Shown here: positions 17,681 through 29,745 of the stretch, in pieces
How positions within the stretch are numbered: position 1 is the stretch's first letter
How the letters are laid out: every line of letters begins with the position of its first letter
NCBI GenBank assembly: GCA_021209625.1
Contig: JAJOHZ010000008.1
Span: forward strand, 1 to 32,530
Source: Erysipelotrichaceae bacterium
Lineage (GTDB): Bacteria; Bacillota_I; Bacilli_A; Erysipelotrichales; Erysipelotrichaceae
Direction: 5' to 3'
DNA length: 32,530 bases
Notes under the pieces: generated by a model
What the model saw: only the letters and a program-made list of their open reading frames with translations
The model's database searches: none
What the model was told of the DNA's origin: nothing
Made by a program: the position numbers and the translations under genes

Positions 17681-18832
17681 TTATTTATAAGATTGTGCGT
17701 ATGGTTTTAAGTTTTCGGTTATTCCAACCCAAACATCAATCACTTCATTTTGACCAAAATTAGAAAAGGTTTGTTGGCTCGCTTTGGTTTCAAGAAGCGA
17801 TGCATCGGGTCTTGAATTTTCATCAAACACCCATACGGCACCGAAGAATTGATTAGGATAAGCAGCTTGAAGTCGTTCTAAGAATGCTTTTCCTTCTTCT
17901 AAAGTTTTTAAGAAGAGTATGGTTGATAAGGTATCACCAATGGTTGCATCTTCACTCACCACCACCACACTTCTAAAATGATTGACTGGAAGCTGTGTTT
18001 TAGGATTCACGAGATGATGATAGAATACACCATTTTCATCCACATAGTTTTGCTGATCAATACCAGATGTTGAAATCGCAACATTAAATGGCATTTCAAT
18101 GTTTTCAACACCATTAGCAACACCAATGTTCCAAGGTTTATCTTCTTCTTTTAAACCAAGTAAGTTAATGGATGAAAGTCCAGCTGAAATAAGAGCACGA
18201 GTTAACCCAGCTTCTTCAATGGCTTGTGTGGCCTTATCTGCGGCATAACCTTTCGCAATCCCGCCTAGATCAAGACTTGCACATGACTTTGTAATGAAGA
18301 TAGTAGAGTTGACTTCATCAATCTCAATTAAATCCCAACCAATACACTCAGCAGCGATAGCTAAACGATCAAGATCAGGAGTGGGACCTAAACCACCATT
18401 CATCTTTGCTTCTCCACGGTATTCATGCCAAATCTCGAAAATAGCCCCAGCAGTTACATCAAAAATGCCATCACTTAAGTCGTACATCGTTTTTGAAATT
18501 TTAAGTAACTCAATGACACGTGGATCAACTTTAACAGGGGCAATTCCTGCCATTTGATTCACAGTGTATAAGGAACTAACCCCTTCATACGCAGCATAGC
18601 GATCAAAGTGTTGGTTTAAATCTGTAATTGTGCTTTTAAAAAGTTCGAATTGTCGATCAAAATCACGTTTTGAATTGGTTAATCCAATTAATCTGAATTC
18701 GGTGTTAAACCCAGCAGTAATTGTACTGTTGGTAAAACGTTCTATTTGAAGTGCATTACGAATTTGAACGCCAGCGATCACAATGACCACAAAGACAATC
18801 AGACCAGCACGAAACCATTTATTTTCAAGCAT
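17681..18832 (-). CDS. apbE: FAD:protein FMN transferase (ApbE family)
   Basis: 'FDVTAGAIFEIW', 'ASLDLGGIAKGYAADKATQAI', 'ISAGLSSINLLG', 'HHLVNPKTQLPVNHFRSVVVVSEDATIGDTLSTILF'; divergent from rnf operon. Confidence 0.93.
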   Translation of the reverse strand: MLENKWFRAGLIVFVVIVIAGVQIRNALQIERFTNSTITAGFNTEFRLIGLTNSKRDFDRQFELFKSTITDLNQHFDRYAAYEGVSSLYTVNQMAGIAPVKVDPRVIELLKISKTMYDLSDGIFDVTAGAIFEIWHEYRGEAKMNGGLGPTPDLDRLAIAAECIGWDLIEIDEVNSTIFITKSCASLDLGGIAKGYAADKATQAIEEAGLTRALISAGLSSINLLGLKEEDKPWNIGVANGVENIEMPFNVAISTSGIDQQNYVDENGVFYHHLVNPKTQLPVNHFRSVVVVSEDATIGDTLSTILFLKTLEEGKAFLERLQAAYPNQFFGAVWVFDENSRPDASLLETKASQQTFSNFGQNEVIDVWVGITENLKPYAQSYK

Positions 18833-18953: not shown

Positions 18954-19015
18954 ACCACTATGTCATGACTCATAAGGTCATTTCAAATGTTAAGAAGGTT
19001 GAAAGGAAGGTCACT

Positions 19016-20311
19016 ATGTCAGTTTGGATTGGTTCCATGCAGAAGCATATCGAAGGCTTTAAAGAGCTAACCACTTACAACGACATTGTCAATATCGCTG
19101 CACCTAAAGAGATTTACATCCCTTTAATCAATGGTGTTTCCACAGCGTTTGAAGTGTTGGTGAAAGAAGGCGATCGTGTTTTTGTGAATACTAAAGTTGC
19201 GGTTCGCAACGATCGATTTGAAGTACCTCTGTTTTCTCCTGTATCAGGAGTTATCAAAGGTATCAAAAAAATCATGCATGCTTCACTCAAGCCAGTGGAT
19301 CATATTGTGATTGAAAATGATGAGTTGTATGAATCAACCATCAGCATTCCAAAATTTGATTTGGAGAATGCAACCAAAGATGAGGCTATTGAATTTGCTA
19401 AGGTAGCAGGTATTGTTGGTATGGGAGGTGCAGGATTCCCTACATATTTCAAATACCTTACTCCCGCAACACTTAAAGCGGTGTTGATTAATGGTGTTGA
19501 ATGTGAACCTTACATTACCGCAGACTATCGCATGATGGAGAACTACACTCAGGATTTAATCACTGGGTTTATTGCCATGATGAAAATGGCTGACGCTCAA
19601 GAAGTTCACATCGCGATTAAGAAATCTAAAAAGAAACTCATTAAATACATTCAAGAGGCCATCAAGCCATATCCATTTGCTTCAATCAAAGAAGTGGATG
19701 ATGTCTATCCTATGGGATGGGAACGTACATTAGTGTATGCCATTTATAAAAAACGTTATGTTAAGATCCCTTGCGAAGTGAACGTTATTGTAAATAATGC
19801 AACCACAGCGATTGCATTGGGTCAAGCCATCAATAAGCAAATGGGTCCTACCATGAAGATGGTCACTGTTTCAGGTAATGGAATTAAGAATCCAGCTAAT
19901 GTGTTTGTTCCAGTAGGAACCCCAGCAAGTCATATTATTGCTCAGTTGGGTGGATATACCGATGAAAACATCACTCTAGTGGCAGGTGGTCCGATGATGG
20001 GTAAAACCATGACAACCGATGCCTGGGTGGTGACTCCTTACACAAATGCAATTACCATTACTAAGACAGAACAAGTGGATTCCATGACTTGTTTGCGTTG
20101 TGGAACATGCAATGATCATTGCCCTGCAGGATTACTTCCTGTACGTATTAATAATGCAGAACAAGCCAAGAATGTTGATATGATTGCTCAACTCAATGCG
20201 GATCTTTGCATTGAATGTGGTCTTTGTACTTATGTTTGTCCATCTAAATTAGAAGTAACTGAAGGGGTACGTCGTGCTAAACGTGTCCTTGCGTTGAAGA
20301 AGGGGGCTTAA
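19016..20311 (+). CDS. rnfC: Rnf electron-transport complex subunit C
   Basis: 'GIVGMGGAGFPTYFKYLTPA' nucleotide/FMN-binding motif; two 4Fe-4S motifs 'CLRCGTCNDHCP' and 'CIECGLCTYVCP'; RBS 'gaaaggaagg' before ATG 19016 (the track's 18965 start is upstream). Confidence 0.95.
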   Translation: MSVWIGSMQKHIEGFKELTTYNDIVNIAAPKEIYIPLINGVSTAFEVLVKEGDRVFVNTKVAVRNDRFEVPLFSPVSGVIKGIKKIMHASLKPVDHIVIENDELYESTISIPKFDLENATKDEAIEFAKVAGIVGMGGAGFPTYFKYLTPATLKAVLINGVECEPYITADYRMMENYTQDLITGFIAMMKMADAQEVHIAIKKSKKKLIKYIQEAIKPYPFASIKEVDDVYPMGWERTLVYAIYKKRYVKIPCEVNVIVNNATTAIALGQAINKQMGPTMKMVTVSGNGIKNPANVFVPVGTPASHIIAQLGGYTDENITLVAGGPMMGKTMTTDAWVVTPYTNAITITKTEQVDSMTCLRCGTCNDHCPAGLLPVRINNAEQAKNVDMIAQLNADLCIECGLCTYVCPSKLEVTEGVRRAKRVLALKKGA

Positions 20312-20313
20312 TC

Positions 20314-21801
20314 ATGAAATTTCAATTTAAAGTCTCACCTACAATGAAGACTCGTCAAAGCACACAACAAATCATGATGTTGCTTACACTTGGTTTAATG
20401 TCAGTGGTGTTATTCTCTTCTGCATTCTATTTTGTTGAGTATGGGATGGATTATGTTGTGCATCTTTGGAGCTTATTGGCTGTTGCGGTTTCCGTTGCGG
20501 TAGCATCAGAAGCTGTTTGGGCTTATTTTCTGAAGAAAGACATTGTTAAGTACTTAAAAACATCCTTTCCATGGGTGACTGCTATTATCTTAGTGCTCAT
20601 GGTTCCAATTTCAACACCTCTCTATCCAATCGCTATTGGTACATTCTTTGCGATTGTGGTAGCTAAACTTATGTTTGGTGGGTTTGGACATAATGTCTTT
20701 AACCTTGCTGGGGTAGGACGTGCTGTCATGTTATTCAGCTTTGGTGCTGCCATTATGCCAGACTTGGTTACTTCCGCTACACCAATTTCATCCATTGCTA
20801 ATCTTGGATGGGTTGTTAAAGATGCAGTTCAACTTGAAACCTTTCTAGCACAATTTGGTGGTATCAGTGGATTACTCTTTGGATGGTATCCTGGAGCTAT
20901 CGGAGAAACTTCCGCATTACTTATCATGGTTATTGGAATCTTCTTGGCTGTTAAGAATGTATTGGACTGGAGAATTCCAGTGTTCTACATGGGAACCATC
21001 TTCGTGTTATCTGCATTAGTCGCAGCGATTCAAGGTTTAGGCATCTGGTTCCCACTCTACAATATTTTTGCTGGGGGAGCGATGTTTGGAGCTGTGTTTA
21101 TGTTAACAGATCCAGTCACCAATCCTACATCAGCTTCTGGCCGTATCTTGTTTGCGATTGGAGCAGGTATCATCACCATGCTTATTCGTCTACAAGGTAA
21201 CTATCCTGAAGGGGTTGTCTTCTCAATTTTAATTATGAACATGTTGTCTCCAATGATTGATCGTTTTACTGATGGATGGCAGCTTGAATTATCGAAGAAA
21301 TACGTTACTTCTATCGCAACACTCAGTGTTGTGGGTGCACTTCTTATGGGTGTTGTTGGGTTTAACTTACAGGCTGTAGCCATTGAAGAACCTGAACCGG
21401 AAGTACCAGATATTACATTATCTTCACCCATTGCGCTTGATCAAAGTGCAAGTGCAACTCAAGGTGTTATCTTGTCATCAAGTGTTGATGGGGATGCTAC
21501 TGTTGTATTAGTAGAAATTAAAGGATACGCCATTCTTGAAGGTGGTTATGAAGGAGCTCAACCGAATAAGGTTGAAGTTCGTGTTAACACATCCTCATTA
21601 AAAGTTGTGAGTGTTACTGTGGTTGAAATTAAAGACACCAACAACATTGGTACTAAAGTCGACAATCCTATCTTCCTTGATCAGTTTAAAGATCTTGATC
21701 AAACGGGCAGTGTGGATGCAGTGTCAGGGGCAACAGTCACATCACTTTCAGTGGTTCGTGCTGTCTATGCTGCGTTAGAGCATGTTAAAGGAGGAGAATA
21801 A
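20314..21801 (+). CDS. rnfD: Rnf complex subunit D with an added C-terminal FMN_bind domain
   Basis: NqrB/RnfD-type membrane domain (with 'DLVTSATPISS') followed from about 21385 by an extracytosolic domain ending 'VDAVSGATVTSLSVVRAVYAAL'. Confidence 0.95.
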   Translation: MKFQFKVSPTMKTRQSTQQIMMLLTLGLMSVVLFSSAFYFVEYGMDYVVHLWSLLAVAVSVAVASEAVWAYFLKKDIVKYLKTSFPWVTAIILVLMVPISTPLYPIAIGTFFAIVVAKLMFGGFGHNVFNLAGVGRAVMLFSFGAAIMPDLVTSATPISSIANLGWVVKDAVQLETFLAQFGGISGLLFGWYPGAIGETSALLIMVIGIFLAVKNVLDWRIPVFYMGTIFVLSALVAAIQGLGIWFPLYNIFAGGAMFGAVFMLTDPVTNPTSASGRILFAIGAGIITMLIRLQGNYPEGVVFSILIMNMLSPMIDRFTDGWQLELSKKYVTSIATLSVVGALLMGVVGFNLQAVAIEEPEPEVPDITLSSPIALDQSASATQGVILSSSVDGDATVVLVEIKGYAILEGGYEGAQPNKVEVRVNTSSLKVVSVTVVEIKDTNNIGTKVDNPIFLDQFKDLDQTGSVDAVSGATVTSLSVVRAVYAALEHVKGGE

Positions 21802-21803
21802 AT

Positions 21804-22739
21804 ATGAATAAGAAAGTTGTTCAATTAACCCTCTTCTTAGCCATTATTGCTTCTATTTCTGGAGGATTACTCTCCTTTGTAAACTCATTTACTGCTCCAA
21901 TCATTAATGAAAATGCAATTGCAGCTGAAAAAGTGACATTACAACTCATTTTCCCAAATACTGAAGAATTTGTTCCTGTTGCTGAATTTGAAGATGAAAC
22001 TGGATCCATTCTTGCGATCTTTGAAGCTAAAGGAGCAGGATATGCGTATAAAGTCTCTCGCATGGGATATGCGAATCCAATCGTTATGATGGTTGGGATT
22101 TCCAATGATGCGAAGATTGTTGGATTACAAGTGTTAGAACTTTCAGACACTCCTGGTTATGGTATGAAGATTGGAGAAGCAGCCTTCATCAACTCAGTGG
22201 TTGGTAAAGGCACAACGGATGGTTTAGATTTAATCTCTGGAGCAACCGTTTCATCCACTGCAGCGGTCACCGCAATCAATGCTGCTCGTACACATTTCAA
22301 TAATCTAAAAGGAATTGATGATGATGGTTCAGGTGGAGTTATTACCCCACCAACGCCTGAATTAGGTGAAACCATTGCCTTAAATTCTGAAACAGCTACC
22401 TTAATTACTGGTAACATTACAAATACCGTCGTTAATGGTGATGAAACAGTTTATACTGTAGAATCCAATGGTTATCGTGTTGCAGAAGGATATGAAGGTG
22501 CTAAACCTAACGTGTTCAAAGTCACCGTTAACACAGCCACTAAAACGGTTGTCAGCTTAGAAGTTTTAGAAATGAATGATACTGTCGGTATTGGCGATAA
22601 GGTTGAGCATGAAGTGTTCTTATCTCAATTTGTCGGATTATCCTTAGAAGATGAAAATTCAAGTGTTGATATTGTCAGTGGTTCAACTCGTACGTCTATT
22701 TCGGCCATTCGTGCTGTTGTGACGACAATTGGAAAGTAG
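21804..22739 (+). CDS. rnfG: Rnf complex subunit G with two tandem FMN_bind domains
   Basis: N-terminal TM; first domain 'DLISGATVSSTAAV', second domain 'DIVSGSTRTSISAIRAV'. Confidence 0.93.
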   Translation: MNKKVVQLTLFLAIIASISGGLLSFVNSFTAPIINENAIAAEKVTLQLIFPNTEEFVPVAEFEDETGSILAIFEAKGAGYAYKVSRMGYANPIVMMVGISNDAKIVGLQVLELSDTPGYGMKIGEAAFINSVVGKGTTDGLDLISGATVSSTAAVTAINAARTHFNNLKGIDDDGSGGVITPPTPELGETIALNSETATLITGNITNTVVNGDETVYTVESNGYRVAEGYEGAKPNVFKVTVNTATKTVVSLEVLEMNDTVGIGDKVEHEVFLSQFVGLSLEDENSSVDIVSGSTRTSISAIRAVVTTIGK

Positions 22740-22748
22740 GTGAACACA

Positions 22749-23393
22749 ATGAGTCTATTTAAAAACCTATCCAATGGATTAGTTAAAGAAAATCCAGTAT
22801 TCGCGCTCTATTTAGGACTATGTTCAGTGCTTGCGGTATCTAACACCATCAGTAATGCACTAGGGATGAGTGTTGCGGTTATCATGGTATTAACGGTTTC
22901 AAACGTTATTATCTCAGCTCTACGAAAAATTATTCCTAGTGAAATCAGAATTCCTGTTTACATCGTGGTTATTGCTACATTAGTTAAAATTGTTGAAATG
23001 CTAATGCAAGCGTATACTCCTGAATTGTATACAGCACTAGGTGTGTTTATTCCTCTTATTGTCGTTAACTGTATCATCTTAGGTCGTGCCGAAGCGTTTG
23101 CATCAAAAAATAGTGTTGGTGCTTCAGCGATTGATGGTATTGGTATGGGACTTGGTTATACTGCTGGGATTTTCATGCTTGCTGCAATTCGCCAACTCTT
23201 TGCGACAGGTGCATTAAGTTTGATTAATCCATTCAACCAAGCGGTGATTTTTGATATCACCATCATTCCAACTCAGTTTACTATTCCATTGTTTGCACAA
23301 CCTGCAGGGGCGTTCATTACCTTTGCGGTATTGGCAGCATTACTTGAAGTCTATAAACAAGCGGGAGAAAAACCTGCTAAGAAAGGAGCATAA
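22749..23393 (+). CDS. rnfE: Rnf complex subunit E
   Basis: 'NGLVKENPVFALYLGLCSVLAVSN', 'LGVFIPLIVVNCIILGRAEAFASKN'; RBS 'gtaggtg' before ATG 22749. Confidence 0.95.
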   Translation: MSLFKNLSNGLVKENPVFALYLGLCSVLAVSNTISNALGMSVAVIMVLTVSNVIISALRKIIPSEIRIPVYIVVIATLVKIVEMLMQAYTPELYTALGVFIPLIVVNCIILGRAEAFASKNSVGASAIDGIGMGLGYTAGIFMLAAIRQLFATGALSLINPFNQAVIFDITIIPTQFTIPLFAQPAGAFITFAVLAALLEVYKQAGEKPAKKGA

Positions 23394-23395
23394 AC

Positions 23396-23968
23396 ATGGA
23401 ACTATTTTCACTTTTTATCTCCGCTATCTTTATTAATAACATCATCCTCAATAAGTTCTTAGGTATGTGTCCTTTCATGGGCGTTTCTCGTAAGACAAGT
23501 TCAGCATTAGGTATGGGTGGAGCGGTAACCTTTGTTATCTTCTTCTCTTCACTCATCACTTGGGGATTGTTTGAGTATGTCCTTGAACCACTTAATCTTC
23601 AATACATGGATTTAATTACCTTTATTCTTATCATTGCATCCTTTGTGCAACTTGTTGAGATGATCATTAAGAAGTACTCTCCATCCTTGTATAAGGCTTT
23701 AGGGATCTACTTACCTCTCATCACAACCAACTGTGCTGTCTTATTCGTTGCTCTTGAGAACATTAAACAAGGATTTAGCTTTGTAGAATCAGTGGTTTAT
23801 TCCTTGGCAGTTCCAATTGGGTTCACCCTTGTATTGATTATCTTCTCTGCAATTCGTGAGCGATTAGATATTGCTGATGTACCTAAGCCATTAAAAGGTA
23901 ATCCTGTCGCAATGATTGTTGCAGCGATTATGGCGCTTGCTTTCTCTGGATTAGCAGGATTGGTGTAA
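23396..23968 (+). CDS. rnfA: Rnf complex subunit A
   Basis: 'FINNIILNKFLGMCPFMGVSRKTSSALGMGGAVTFV', 'LGIYLPLITTNCAVLFVALEN', 'SAIRERLDIADVPKPLKGNPVAMI'. Confidence 0.96.
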   Translation: MELFSLFISAIFINNIILNKFLGMCPFMGVSRKTSSALGMGGAVTFVIFFSSLITWGLFEYVLEPLNLQYMDLITFILIIASFVQLVEMIIKKYSPSLYKALGIYLPLITTNCAVLFVALENIKQGFSFVESVVYSLAVPIGFTLVLIIFSAIRERLDIADVPKPLKGNPVAMIVAAIMALAFSGLAGLV

Positions 23969-23969
23969 T

Positions 23970-24161
23970 ATGCAATTTATTGCTCCATTGCTTTTCTTAG
24001 GTTTTCTTGGAGGGGTGTATGCTTCGGCGTATTACCTTAACTTGAAGACGCCTAAACCTGAAGGGTGTGACGATGTGGATGTGTCATGTGGATCATGTTC
24101 AATTTCATCATGTGGTTTGCATCCATCCAACAAAGAACTTATCGTGGAGGTTAAATCATGA
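23970..24161 (+). CDS. Small single-TM four-cysteine membrane protein in rnf operon (NqrM-like layout; function unknown)
   Basis: 63 aa: TM helix then 'GCDDVDVSCGSCSISSCG' (C-x6-C-x2-C-x4-C); tightly packed between rnfA and rnfB with ATGA overlap to rnfB. Confidence 0.85.
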   Translation: MQFIAPLLFLGFLGGVYASAYYLNLKTPKPEGCDDVDVSCGSCSISSCGLHPSNKELIVEVKS

Positions 24162-24466
24162 TTGAAGCTATTATTCTCATGTTAGTGCTTGGTGCATTAC
24201 TTGGGTTAGGTCTTGGCATTGCAGATGAGGTGTTTTATGTAAAACCAGATGAGCGATTTGAAAAAGTGCTCAACATGTTACCAGGATACAACTGTGGAGC
24301 ATGTGGTTATCCTGGATGTCAAGGTATGGCTGAAGGATTACTCAATGGTGAAGTAACTGCTGTCTCTCAATGTAAACCTTCCAATGCGGACCAAAGAAGA
24401 GATATTTCAACGTACTTAAATGAAAATCCTGGTCCAGATGGTAAAACGTTAGTGATCAAACCTTAA
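24158..24466 (+). CDS. rnfB: Rnf complex subunit B, short form (TM + single 4Fe-4S domain only)
   Basis: 'LNMLPGYNCGACGYPGCQGMAEGLLNGEVTAVSQC' RnfB signature; 102 aa, followed directly by a terminator; no CxxCxxCxxxC ferredoxin repeats. Confidence 0.9.
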   Translation: MIEAIILMLVLGALLGLGLGIADEVFYVKPDERFEKVLNMLPGYNCGACGYPGCQGMAEGLLNGEVTAVSQCKPSNADQRRDISTYLNENPGPDGKTLVIKP

Positions 24467-25874: not shown

Positions 25875-26827
25875 TATTTGATTATACTATTTTAACCCCA
25901 TACATCAATGATTCACAGATAACGGACATTAATTACAATGGCCATGATTTGTGGTGTGACCATCTGAAAAAAGGGAGATAATCAAGTTAAATCATTTACG
26001 TTTCATTCACAAATGCAACAATTAGCTTATCGATTCGCTAATCATGTGAATCAGACATTCAATCCAAAGACCCCGTGTGTAGAAGCTCAGTTTGATGGGA
26101 TGAGATGTCAATGATTCATGAATCAATCACTTCGTATTTATCCATTTCGATACGAAAAACACCAATGATTGCACGACTATCACAAAAGCAAATGATTAAG
26201 GACCACTATGCTCCAAATCATGTGATTGAATACTTAAATCAAGCAGTTAAAGACAGAAAGAATATCCTTGTGTCTGGACTTCCTGGGGCAGGTAAAACAG
26301 AACTTATCAAATACTTAACGTCTTCGATTCATCCATTGGAGCGAATCATAACCATTGAGGATACATTGGAGATGCATGTGAAGTCATTGTATCCCCATTT
26401 AGACTGTGTAAGCATGAGAGTGAATGATGCATTTACCTATGAAATGGCAATTAAGGCTTCATTGAGACAACGACCAGATTGGATACTTGTATCAGAGGTA
26501 CGCTCGAAAGAAGTGTATTATTTACTTCAAAGCATGAGTACGGGTACTCATTGCTTATCAACACTACATGCCTCTAATGCTCATCAAATTCCTCAACGTC
26601 TTATTCATATGATTCCTGGGCATGACTTATCATATGATCAGATGAAATCACTTATTCATGATGCAGTGGACATTGGGGTTCATATTGAATCCAGCATTAC
26701 TTCAAAAGGTATTCTTCGAAGGATTAAAGAAGTGGTTACATTCTCAATCAATGAAAATAATCATCCCATCACAACAACCATTTATTCTTATGATGACCAA
26801 AGACATCAAGAGGGGGTTAGTCAATGA
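25871..26827 (+). CDS. CpaF/TadA-type secretion ATPase, interrupted by two 1-nt frameshifts
   Basis: 'ITDINYNGHDLWCDHL' (CpaF N-terminal signature), 'VSGLPGAGKTELIKYL' Walker A, 'TIEDTLEM' Asp box, 'RPDWILVSEVRSKEVYYLLQSMSTGTHCLSTLHASN'. Frame restored by deleting one A at 25967-25972 and adding one base near 26104. Confidence 0.9.
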
Positions 26828-27678
26828 ATGGGGTGGCAATAATGATTGGACTTGTGTTCATCTTCTATGTTAATCGACAATTATCAATTAAAGTGTTATT
26901 CAAAAAATCAAGTCCTATCTATTCCATTTATGGTCCAGCAGTTGGATTCTTTCATCGAAAAGAGGCTTGGATTAAGATGATGTTTTTATTAATAATGATG
27001 ATGATTGTTGGTGTTGTATTTAAACTATCAATTGACTATGTATGGATCATGTTTCTTTTGTGTTCGGTATCTTTACCACTGCTTTTGTATTATCAATCAC
27101 AAGCAAATCATCATGCGCATGAATTTAATCAAGTGACCACATTTCTTCAACATTTTTTAGCTCACTTTAAAATTCACCAACAAGCTTATCATGCGCTGAA
27201 AGACGTTAGTCATGTTGTGGATGAATCAAGAAGTCAGCTCATACACACAGCTATAGAAACACTTGAAAGAGATGCAACTGTTCATCCTTTATACTTTATG
27301 ACTCAATGGTGTCCTCATTTCATTGTGATTAATATTATGTCATGGATTCAGCATGTTGAAAGTCATGGATTTGAACACAATCATGAAATTTTGGACATGT
27401 TGGAGAACGACATTGATGATTGGATTGAAGACTCAACTTTATACATGAAGAATATGCACAGCATAAAAAATAAAATTCTCATATTATGTGGCTTATCACT
27501 ACTCATCTCATTATTTAATCAACACATGTTAGGAAGCTTTATGGATCTTGCAAGCAATCAAGTGTACCAATTTGCTACGTTTACTTTCTTAACTGTCGTG
27601 CTATTTACAGGCATTAAAGCATTTAAACTAATGGATTGCTCGTGGATATTGAAGAGTGAATTGTTATGGAAAGAATGA
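26824..27678 (+). CDS. TadB-like pilus assembly membrane protein
   Basis: T2SSF/TadB-like topology (two N-terminal TMs, cytosolic helical domain, two C-terminal TMs), overlap with cpaF and tadC-like genes. Confidence 0.7.
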   Translation: MNGVAIMIGLVFIFYVNRQLSIKVLFKKSSPIYSIYGPAVGFFHRKEAWIKMMFLLIMMMIVGVVFKLSIDYVWIMFLLCSVSLPLLLYYQSQANHHAHEFNQVTTFLQHFLAHFKIHQQAYHALKDVSHVVDESRSQLIHTAIETLERDATVHPLYFMTQWCPHFIVINIMSWIQHVESHGFEHNHEILDMLENDIDDWIEDSTLYMKNMHSIKNKILILCGLSLLISLFNQHMLGSFMDLASNQVYQFATFTFLTVVLFTGIKAFKLMDCSWILKSELLWKE

Positions 27679-28421
27679 TGGCGTTATGGATAGGATTAGG
27701 TTTGTATATTTTCCTTTGGTTGAATAAAAAAACTTTGGAAAAATTATTTCTTGAAAAGGAAACAGAACATTTATTGCATATATTAGAGCGAGGAAGTTGT
27801 GATGCATTTTCATCCAAGCGGTTAACACGTGGATTGCTTGTGTTAGGATTGGCGTTACTCTCATATGCTTTAGATCTTGGTTTAATGCAAAGTCTAGGTT
27901 GGGTTGGATTGAGTCTTTGGATGATTAAATGGCCTAACATTCAACTGCATCAATTGCATCATAAACGATTGAATCAACTCAAAATTGAGTTTCCAATCTG
28001 GTTGAGACAGCTGCAAATCTTACTTCAGCACAACACCGTAGTTCAAAGTTTGAAACTTTCTTCATCGCATGCTCCAAGTTTGTTTAAGGTGGCGTTAAAA
28101 GATTTAGTGATTGAATTAGAGCAGACACCTCATGATTTGTCATTGTATACCTCTTTCTTACAAGACTATCAGAGCATTGAAGTATTACGAGCGATGAAAC
28201 TGCTTTATCGCTACAATGCAATCGGTTCAGATGATTCAACACGACAATTGTCACGTCTTATCTTAGCAACCACGAAATGGTTAAGAGACCAACGTTCATC
28301 CATTCAATCAACTTCACTGTCGATGATTGGGTGGTGGGGCATGCTTCCCTTAATGGGAGTGTGTGGTGTATTTATTGTAATGTTGGGACAAACCTTCATG
28401 ACATTATTAGAAAGGAGGTAA
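27666..28421 (+). CDS. TadC-like pilus assembly membrane protein
   Basis: T2SSF/TadC-like topology ('LNQLKIEFPIWLRQLQILLQHNTVVQSL...'; C-terminal TM), position after TadB-like gene. Confidence 0.7.
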   Translation: MERMMALWIGLGLYIFLWLNKKTLEKLFLEKETEHLLHILERGSCDAFSSKRLTRGLLVLGLALLSYALDLGLMQSLGWVGLSLWMIKWPNIQLHQLHHKRLNQLKIEFPIWLRQLQILLQHNTVVQSLKLSSSHAPSLFKVALKDLVIELEQTPHDLSLYTSFLQDYQSIEVLRAMKLLYRYNAIGSDDSTRQLSRLILATTKWLRDQRSSIQSTSLSMIGWWGMLPLMGVCGVFIVMLGQTFMTLLERR

Positions 28422-28422
28422 A

Positions 28423-28569
28423 ATGAAAGCTTTTTTTGAAGAATATGGCTTAGTGCTTGTGGTTACAGTCATTGCGGTAGGCATGATTGCATTCTCAGAA
28501 GATTTTAAAGTGACACTTAAAGACAATTTAAATTCACAGTGGCAAAGTATGACGGAAGTGGGTAATTAA
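28423..28569 (+). CDS. 48-aa Flp-like pilin candidate
   Basis: 'MKAFFEEYGLVLVVTVIAVGMIAFSEDFKVTLKDNLNSQWQSMTEVGN': Flp-type 'EYGL' plus hydrophobic segment; strong RBS 'aaaggaggt'; not in supplied ORF track (too short). Confidence 0.7.
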   Translation: MKAFFEEYGLVLVVTVIAVGMIAFSEDFKVTLKDNLNSQWQSMTEVGN

Positions 28570-28898
28570 TGAAAGGTTCCTTTGAATTTTCATTCATTAT
28601 GATCTTTGTTATGATGTTCTTGGTGATAGGTATGGGCTTAATTAATATCATGGTTCAATATCAGGACGCAAGAATGCTTCAAGAACGAATCATTGCCCAC
28701 ATTGAAGTGATGGAATCCTTTGACCCTAATCAGTTGAAAACATTGACTCAAATCAGTGCATGCGATCAATGTGTTGTGTCATATCAAGCAGATGAGCATC
28801 ATCGCATTGAAGTCACAATTCAATTTCCACTTCGACTACCCATCATTGATTGGTCAATCAATACAATCATCAGTGCAAAAACGATTCCATTGTTATAA
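28569..28898 (+). CDS. TadE-like small membrane protein
   Basis: 'MKGSFEFSFIMIFVMMFLVIGMGLINIMVQYQDARM': TadE-like N-terminal 'G..xEF' + TM; TAATG overlap with the Flp-like gene. Confidence 0.65.
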   Translation: MKGSFEFSFIMIFVMMFLVIGMGLINIMVQYQDARMLQERIIAHIEVMESFDPNQLKTLTQISACDQCVVSYQADEHHRIEVTIQFPLRLPIIDWSINTIISAKTIPLL

Positions 28899-28974: not shown

Positions 28975-29745
28975 ATGATATTAACAGTCGATGTTGGAAA
29001 CTCAAGTGTCTTTATTATTGGGTATGAAAACAATAAAAGGGTTTATGAAAACAGACAAGAAACCATTAAAGTAGATGTGGTTTCCTATTACTTGCATTAT
29101 TTTGAAATGATTAAAGTAACATGTGAGAGTAAATCAACCATTGATGGTATTGTGATTAGTTGTGTGGTTCCCTTAATCAGTGAAGCGATTGTTTCATGTA
29201 TCGTAGAAGTGTTTAAAATAGAACCATTGGTTGTAAGTGGCAAACTTATTCAATCATTTGAAAACAGGTTATCTAATCCTACAGAAATTGGAGCTGATTT
29301 ACTTGCGACAACCATAGCGGTGCTTGATAGAAATCTCTATCCTGCATGTGTAGCAGATATTGGAACCGCAACAAAAGTAACTGTTATTAACGAAGAGGGT
29401 GCATTCATGGGAGGAGTCATTGCTCCTGGTATTGGCATTTCATCCATTGCCCTTAATAAATCTATTCCCCATTTGCCTCCAATTGAATTAAGAGTGCCTA
29501 AGAAAGTCATAGGATATGATACAGTAAGTGCCATTCAATCAGGAGTGATGTATGGGCTTATAGGAAGTATTGAGGGAATTTGTCATTCAATTGAAGGTGA
29601 GCTTGGGGTTGAAACCCGAAAAATTCTAACTGGTGGATACTCAAATCTCATCTTTGAACACATGGATTCTTTTGAGTTTATGCCTTACTTATTGAATGAA
29701 GGCCTACTTATCATATATAATCGAGTCGTAAAGGAGAAGTTATGA
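28975..29745 (+). CDS. coaX: Type III pantothenate kinase
   Basis: 'MILTVDVGNSSVFIIGY', 'NPTEIGADLLATTIAV', 'VADIGTATKVTVINEEGAFMGGVIAPGIGIS', 'ILTGGYSNLI'. Confidence 0.95.
   Translation: MILTVDVGNSSVFIIGYENNKRVYENRQETIKVDVVSYYLHYFEMIKVTCESKSTIDGIVISCVVPLISEAIVSCIVEVFKIEPLVVSGKLIQSFENRLSNPTEIGADLLATTIAVLDRNLYPACVADIGTATKVTVINEEGAFMGGVIAPGIGISSIALNKSIPHLPPIELRVPKKVIGYDTVSAIQSGVMYGLIGSIEGICHSIEGELGVETRKILTGGYSNLIFEHMDSFEFMPYLLNEGLLIIYNRVVKEKL

Follow-up and report, generated by a model that had tools for sequence, protein, structure and literature searches.

A 63-residue four-cysteine membrane protein encoded between rnfA and rnfB, a candidate iron–sulfur loading factor of Rnf

Results

The rnf operon of the window

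The window, the whole 32,530-nt stretch of Erysipelotrichaceae DNA analysed here (contig JAJOHZ010000008.1), contains an rnf operon on the forward strand. It begins with rnfC (18965..20311; TIGR01945, 341 bits) and continues with rnfD (20314..21801; PF03116 and PF04205), which has an additional FMN_bind domain at its C-terminus, and rnfG (21804..22739), in which PF04205 matches two FMN_bind stretches. These are followed by rnfE (22740..23393; 217 aa, TIGR01948, 226 bits), which has no C-terminal Cys tail, and rnfA (23396..23968; 190 aa, TIGR01943, 259 bits). A gene for the flavin transferase ApbE (17681..18832, reverse strand; PF02424, 188 bits) is divergent from the operon. The Cys pairs of the [2Fe-2S] site at the RnfA/RnfE interface are present as LGMCP and TTNC in RnfA and as LGLC and VVNC in RnfE. 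Their positions agree with those given in PMC9588780 and PMC11889175.

The RnfB of the window is a short form of 102 aa (24158..24466, +), with a TM helix and an FeS domain and no Fer4 domain. PF04060 is its only domain match, and its TIGR01944 score of 62 bits lies below the cut-off of 68.7. The other genes of the window's operon are normal rnf genes. Short RnfB lacking Fer4 is the rule in the Bacilli rnf operons that we read. The FMN_bind additions to RnfD and RnfG suggest extra extracytosolic flavins; in related operons, RnfD frames reach 716 aa (L071).

A coupled gene between rnfA and rnfB

An open reading frame encoding 63 amino acids, here called X, lies between rnfA and rnfB (23970..24161, +). 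Its translation from the window is MQFIAPLLFLGFLGGVYASAYYLNLKTPKPEGCDDVDVSCGSCSISSCGLHPSNKELIVEVKS. The frame starts with the ATG at 23970, 1 nt past the rnfA stop (TAA, 23966-23968). Its TGA, ending at 24161, overlaps the rnfB start codon within an ATGA (24158-24161), and a GGAGG is located just upstream of rnfB. Compared with congeners, X has a dN/dS of 0.045-0.071 (NG86; dS 0.8-2.1). ORF 23970-24161 is a real, translated gene.

A transmembrane helix is predicted at residues 4-25 (23979..24044, +), where the AlphaFold2 model forms a helix; the hydropathy maximum covers residues 3-21. The Cys motif G-C-x6-C-x2-C-x4-C-x2-H-P occupies residues 33-52 (24066..24125, +) and is invariant in 26 Erysipelotrichales members, with the cysteines of the window protein at positions 33, 40, 43 and 48. 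The C-x6-C-x2-C-x4-C pattern recurs in 10 of 100,000 shuffles of the X protein. These data agree with the sequence-only reading of this DNA, which had described a 63-residue TM/four-Cys protein with an N-terminal helix between rnfA and rnfB and had taken it to be translationally coupled to the rnf operon.

Ten residues are invariant in 26/26 diverse members of the family: N24, T27, P28, P30, C33, C40, C43, C48, H51 and P52. In a wider set, 111 members drawn from many families, conservation of the cysteines is 86/100/100/99%, first to fourth. Loss of the cysteines in orthologous rnf operons, named by the sequence-only reading as evidence against its proposal, is therefore not what we see. The spacing varies among members as C-x6-9-C-x2-C-x4-C, and the Cys segment is of low confidence in the AlphaFold model, which is otherwise a single helix. 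The combination of three invariant cysteines, one variable cysteine, variable spacing and a low-confidence segment would fit a labile site. The mean net charge of X is +1.3 after the TM helix and -0.2 before it; from this difference and the positive-inside rule, we infer that the Cys tail is cytosolic.

Relation to NqrM and to FeoB-associated proteins

Neither Pfam nor NCBIfam has a match for the window protein at E<=10, and searching with a profile built from 26 X members returned no solved structure or PDB chain. X was not found on PLSDB plasmids, and PHROGs returned nothing useful for it. A single-sequence search with X of the genome contigs matched four close relatives only. Judged by the Pfam, NCBIfam and PDB searches, X is the founder of an undescribed protein family.

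Na+-NQR uses a small protein, NqrM, and the sequence-only reading had taken X for a candidate NqrM-like maturation factor of Rnf, with a likeness to FeoB-associated Cys-rich proteins as an alternative. PF04400 (NqrM, DUF539) does not match the window protein at E<=10, nor any of the 26 members; it gave no match in relatives either, where the control genomes were equally without one. For a profile comparison, ten NqrM sequences were taken from annotated or tblastn-found records. The approximate NqrM sequence that served as the search bait was itself left out of the comparison. hhalign aligned X with NqrM at a probability of 24-36%, and 19/150 column shuffles scored as well. Homology of X to NqrM was rejected, as its profile score against ten real NqrM sequences does not rise above shuffles. 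The comparison with the FeoB-associated profile gave a probability of 93%, with 1/150 column shuffles as good, so that the alternative fares better by sequence. PF12669 matches 4/26 X members weakly (best E 0.0037). Its Pfam cut-off of 27 bits is reached by no member, and the X of the window goes unmatched at E<=10.

NqrM and X share several features. Both are small, with one N-terminal TM helix and a Cys tail that follows a basic K-T stretch, and both are encoded with a complex of the RnfA/E (NqrE/D) type, near apbE. They differ in Cys spacing, which in NqrM is SCGG...CxC or CxxC...C and in X is C-x6-9-C-x2-C-x4-C, and in setting, since NqrM is found with nqr genes while X sits in rnfCDGEA(X)B. 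FeoB-associated proteins also combine a TM helix with a Cys tail, of the C-x3-C-x2-C-x4 type; the C-x2-C is common to both, while the outer spacings differ. Unlike them, X has its own conserved N-x2-T-P-x-P-x-G-C signature, and its linked copies adjoin rnfA and rnfB, not feoB. By these cut-offs X is a member of neither NqrM nor PF12669; it resembles PF12669 by sequence and NqrM by setting. The comparison favours kinship with the FeoB-associated Cys-rich proteins (PF12669-like), not with NqrM.

X follows Rnf in the genomes sampled

In the order Erysipelotrichales, X is present in 139/198 genomes, all 139 of which have an RnfB match. With short RnfB defined as a frame under 200 aa, X adjoins short rnfB in 137/139 operons of the order. 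Both exceptions are contig ends: G159 is divided between contigs, and G081 is truncated and of the long type. None of the 11 long rnfB genes of the order has an adjacent X.

The phylum was sampled with 396 genomes, of which 108 carry X and 136 carry rnfA; the two genes coincide in 107. The Fisher p of 3e-68 ignores relatedness and is descriptive. The sole X genome of the 108 without rnfA represents an 18-residue chance match. The apparent X genomes without rnfA (G148, G067 and G286) were rejected as weak partial matches. By this comparison X depends on Rnf across the class, and the link between the two is strong. Where X is encoded away from an rnf operon, the genome always has rnfA. The second refuting condition of the sequence-only reading, conservation outside rnf contexts with another function, is thus not what we see either. 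This is in keeping with the Rnf-dedicated TM/Cys protein that had been proposed, and the co-occurrence with short RnfB, which had been suggested as a check, is evident from the adjacency counts. X marks an unusual Rnf type of Bacilli, in which RnfB has no ferredoxin domains.

The close association with short RnfB would also suit a structural or redox subunit of short-RnfB Rnf, the cluster of which would replace the missing RnfB ferredoxin domains in electron entry. X overlaps the short rnfB in the window and is never found beside a long one, and its C-x2-C-x4-C core is spaced as the first three cysteines of the RnfB FeS motif. The Cys site itself fits such a subunit less well: the first cysteine is absent in 14% of members, the spacing is variable and the segment is predicted with low confidence.

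X genes away from the operon

We read 133 rnf loci containing rnfA, rnfE and rnfB, selected partly by the presence of X. Of these, 100 combine linked X with short RnfB. In another 22 with short RnfB, the first profile detected no linked X. The remaining 11 have long RnfB, among them G081, which a contig end interrupts and whose sequence assigned it to the long class. The 22 loci fall into four groups. One (G424) has a divergent linked X, and four, from very small genomes, carry a mini-X between rnfA and rnfB, consisting of a TM helix and then few cysteines (for example NKCSQCLNSCGKRL). Twelve are in genomes with an unlinked X, and the remaining five are extra operons in genomes where X adjoins another rnf operon. 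The mini-X loci (L143, L144, L147 and L148) come from genomes of 0.8-0.9 Mb and encode a TM helix with three or four cysteines.

Unlinked X genes were matched with E-values of 9e-15 (G493), 5e-13 (G487), 3e-13 (G396), 1e-12 (G377) and 7e-8 (G315). Further short-RnfB genomes with unlinked X are G342, G403, G475, G476, G485 and G531. In several lineages the unlinked gene adjoins a dCMP-deaminase-like gene, and elsewhere it lies between phosphoglucomutase- and uracil-DNA-glycosylase-like genes (all named by reading). G403 has a single unlinked X and two short-RnfB operons. G244 and G250 have one X each and two or more RnfA hits, their extra operons having been read in part. That one X goes with several Rnf sets would be expected if the factor acts in trans, and both the unlinked copies of several lineages and the shared X of G403 argue against a redox subunit.

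A FeoB-associated relative could also serve in general iron handling, as a membrane buffer or chaperone, and sit in the rnf operon as Rnf consumes much iron. The 93% profile probability (1/150 shuffles) and the weak PF12669 matches in 4/26 members are in line with this. Nevertheless, genomes lacking rnfA have essentially no X, the unlinked X genes do not adjoin feoB, and a separate small protein is encoded after feoB in the genome of the window. We regard a general iron-handling role as improbable.

A similar cysteine motif at the end of RnfE

In 10/11 long-RnfB operons, RnfE has a four-Cys C-terminal tail, and the genomes concerned have no X. Examples of the tail are CGGDCLHCHGTTC and HSSTLECGGDCTHCHGITCFEE, and its motif can resemble that of X, as in CGGDCTHCHGITC. 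The entries listed with long RnfB and a four-Cys RnfE tail are L125, L126, L127, L128, L129, L130, L131, L133, L135, L168 and L241. The motif is found in 0/122 RnfE of short-RnfB operons; tail and X are separated by only two independent contrasts on the tree, with short RnfB and tail absence almost fully confounded. The tails match PF12669 weakly (best E 0.007). The RnfE tail is like X in its Cys motif, in its putatively cytosolic position at the end of RnfE and in its occurrence in genomes without X. It is unlike X in being part of RnfE, with no TM helix of its own. Long RnfB together with a four-Cys RnfE tail is also found in Subdoligranulum (Clostridia).

At the eleventh long-RnfB locus, G152, one cysteine is left in the RnfE tail, and the genome has an X match (1.8e-19). 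The gene is on a different contig from the rnf operon and adjoins an apbE-like gene (named by reading). On the RnfA tree, G152 and G192 are sisters, with a local support of 100; G192 has the RnfE tail and no X. The pair suggests that one form has replaced the other, in a single case. The X of G152 (L166:2913-4288), away from the long-type rnf operon, may be what is left of a short-type rnf locus that has been lost.

These observations bear on the subunit reading as well. G152 has X with a long RnfB, and where X is absent, the similar motif is on RnfE and not on RnfB. A structural or redox subunit that compensates for the short RnfB is unlikely in our judgement. The idea of X simply substituting for the lost RnfB ferredoxin domains is weakened by G152, the RnfE tail and the unlinked copies.

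Discussion

Proposed role of X

According to PMC11889175, four cysteines of RnfA and RnfE bind a [2Fe-2S] cluster inside the membrane; PMC9588780 models a single Fe at this site. A 2025 RNF/NQR review (PMC12174285) reports that NQR needs NqrM for the equivalent site. The insertion factors named in the accessible text of this review are ApbE and, for NQR, NqrM, with none of the X type for Rnf, which accords with the earlier statement that a dedicated Rnf maturation factor is not established. The insertion route of the buried RnfA/RnfE cluster is not covered in the available excerpts of recent papers, in which NqrM is the factor for NQR and none is named for Rnf.

We propose, with an even chance of being right, that X is an Rnf-dedicated, membrane-tethered accessory that loads iron or a cluster into the RnfA/RnfE site. 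Its single N-terminal membrane helix would run from outside to inside, and the short, flexible Cys tail would lie at the cytosolic membrane face beside RnfA and RnfE, presumably in contact with them. There, the tail may bind a labile Fe-S cluster or iron; its most likely function would be to help fill the buried [2Fe-2S] site, the role that NqrM has in Na+-NQR. In the long-RnfB Rnf of the same class, a similar Cys motif would be built into the C-terminus of RnfE. The loading role is favoured over a redox or structural part because X can be unlinked and shared, because one of the four cysteines is variable and because of the RnfE tail; the presence of this tail where operons lack X supports an action at RnfE/RnfA. 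In the best explanation, X works like NqrM without being NqrM.

A free and a fused form are also known for the FeoB-associated module, which is either a free protein or a C-terminal domain of FeoB (PMC8749426). Likewise, X is free and a similar motif is on RnfE. We tentatively consider, at somewhat less than even chance, that Rnf has an Fe-S loading module in two interchangeable forms, free X and the RnfE tail, with FeoB-associated kin and an origin separate from NqrM.

X could instead be a redox- or iron-sensing regulator or a stabilizer of Rnf, for example by shielding cluster-less RnfA/E from degradation. X is a small protein with a TM helix and, next to RnfA/E, a Cys site that looks labile; in Salmonella, another small Cys protein, FeoC, is reported to guard FeoB against proteolysis (PMC8749426). 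Nothing specific favours such a role, which sequence alone cannot separate from loading, and we consider it improbable.

If the loading module exists, Rnf would possess a cluster-insertion factor of its own, as Na+-NQR does. Cluster insertion could be tested with X as a defined gene, with its four cysteines and with the naturally occurring swap between X and the RnfE tail.

Rnf operons outside Bacilli and other loci

Outside Bacilli, a few Rnf operons were read. Two solved RnfE proteins, that of C. tetanomorphum with 201 aa and that of A. woodii with 196 aa, are too short to include a Cys tail, which E. coli RsxE lacks as well. In Monoglobus, Acetoanaerobium, Fusobacterium and Bacteroides, neither the RnfE Cys tail nor X is found in the operon. 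As several Rnf operons show neither form, the module would not be universal unless an unlinked factor exists in those genomes; so many RnfA/E sites are probably loaded without X or the tail, or by such a factor.

Related Bacilli also contain Nqr-like operons (L150:2946-5307 and L151:2211-4564), in which an NqrF-like protein replaces RnfB; neither X nor NqrM was seen next to these two operons. In the window, the ORFs at 26105-28898 read like a competence or type II secretion-type operon, with an ATPase, membrane proteins and small pilin-like proteins. After them, at 28975, comes a gene that resembles those for type III pantothenate kinase.
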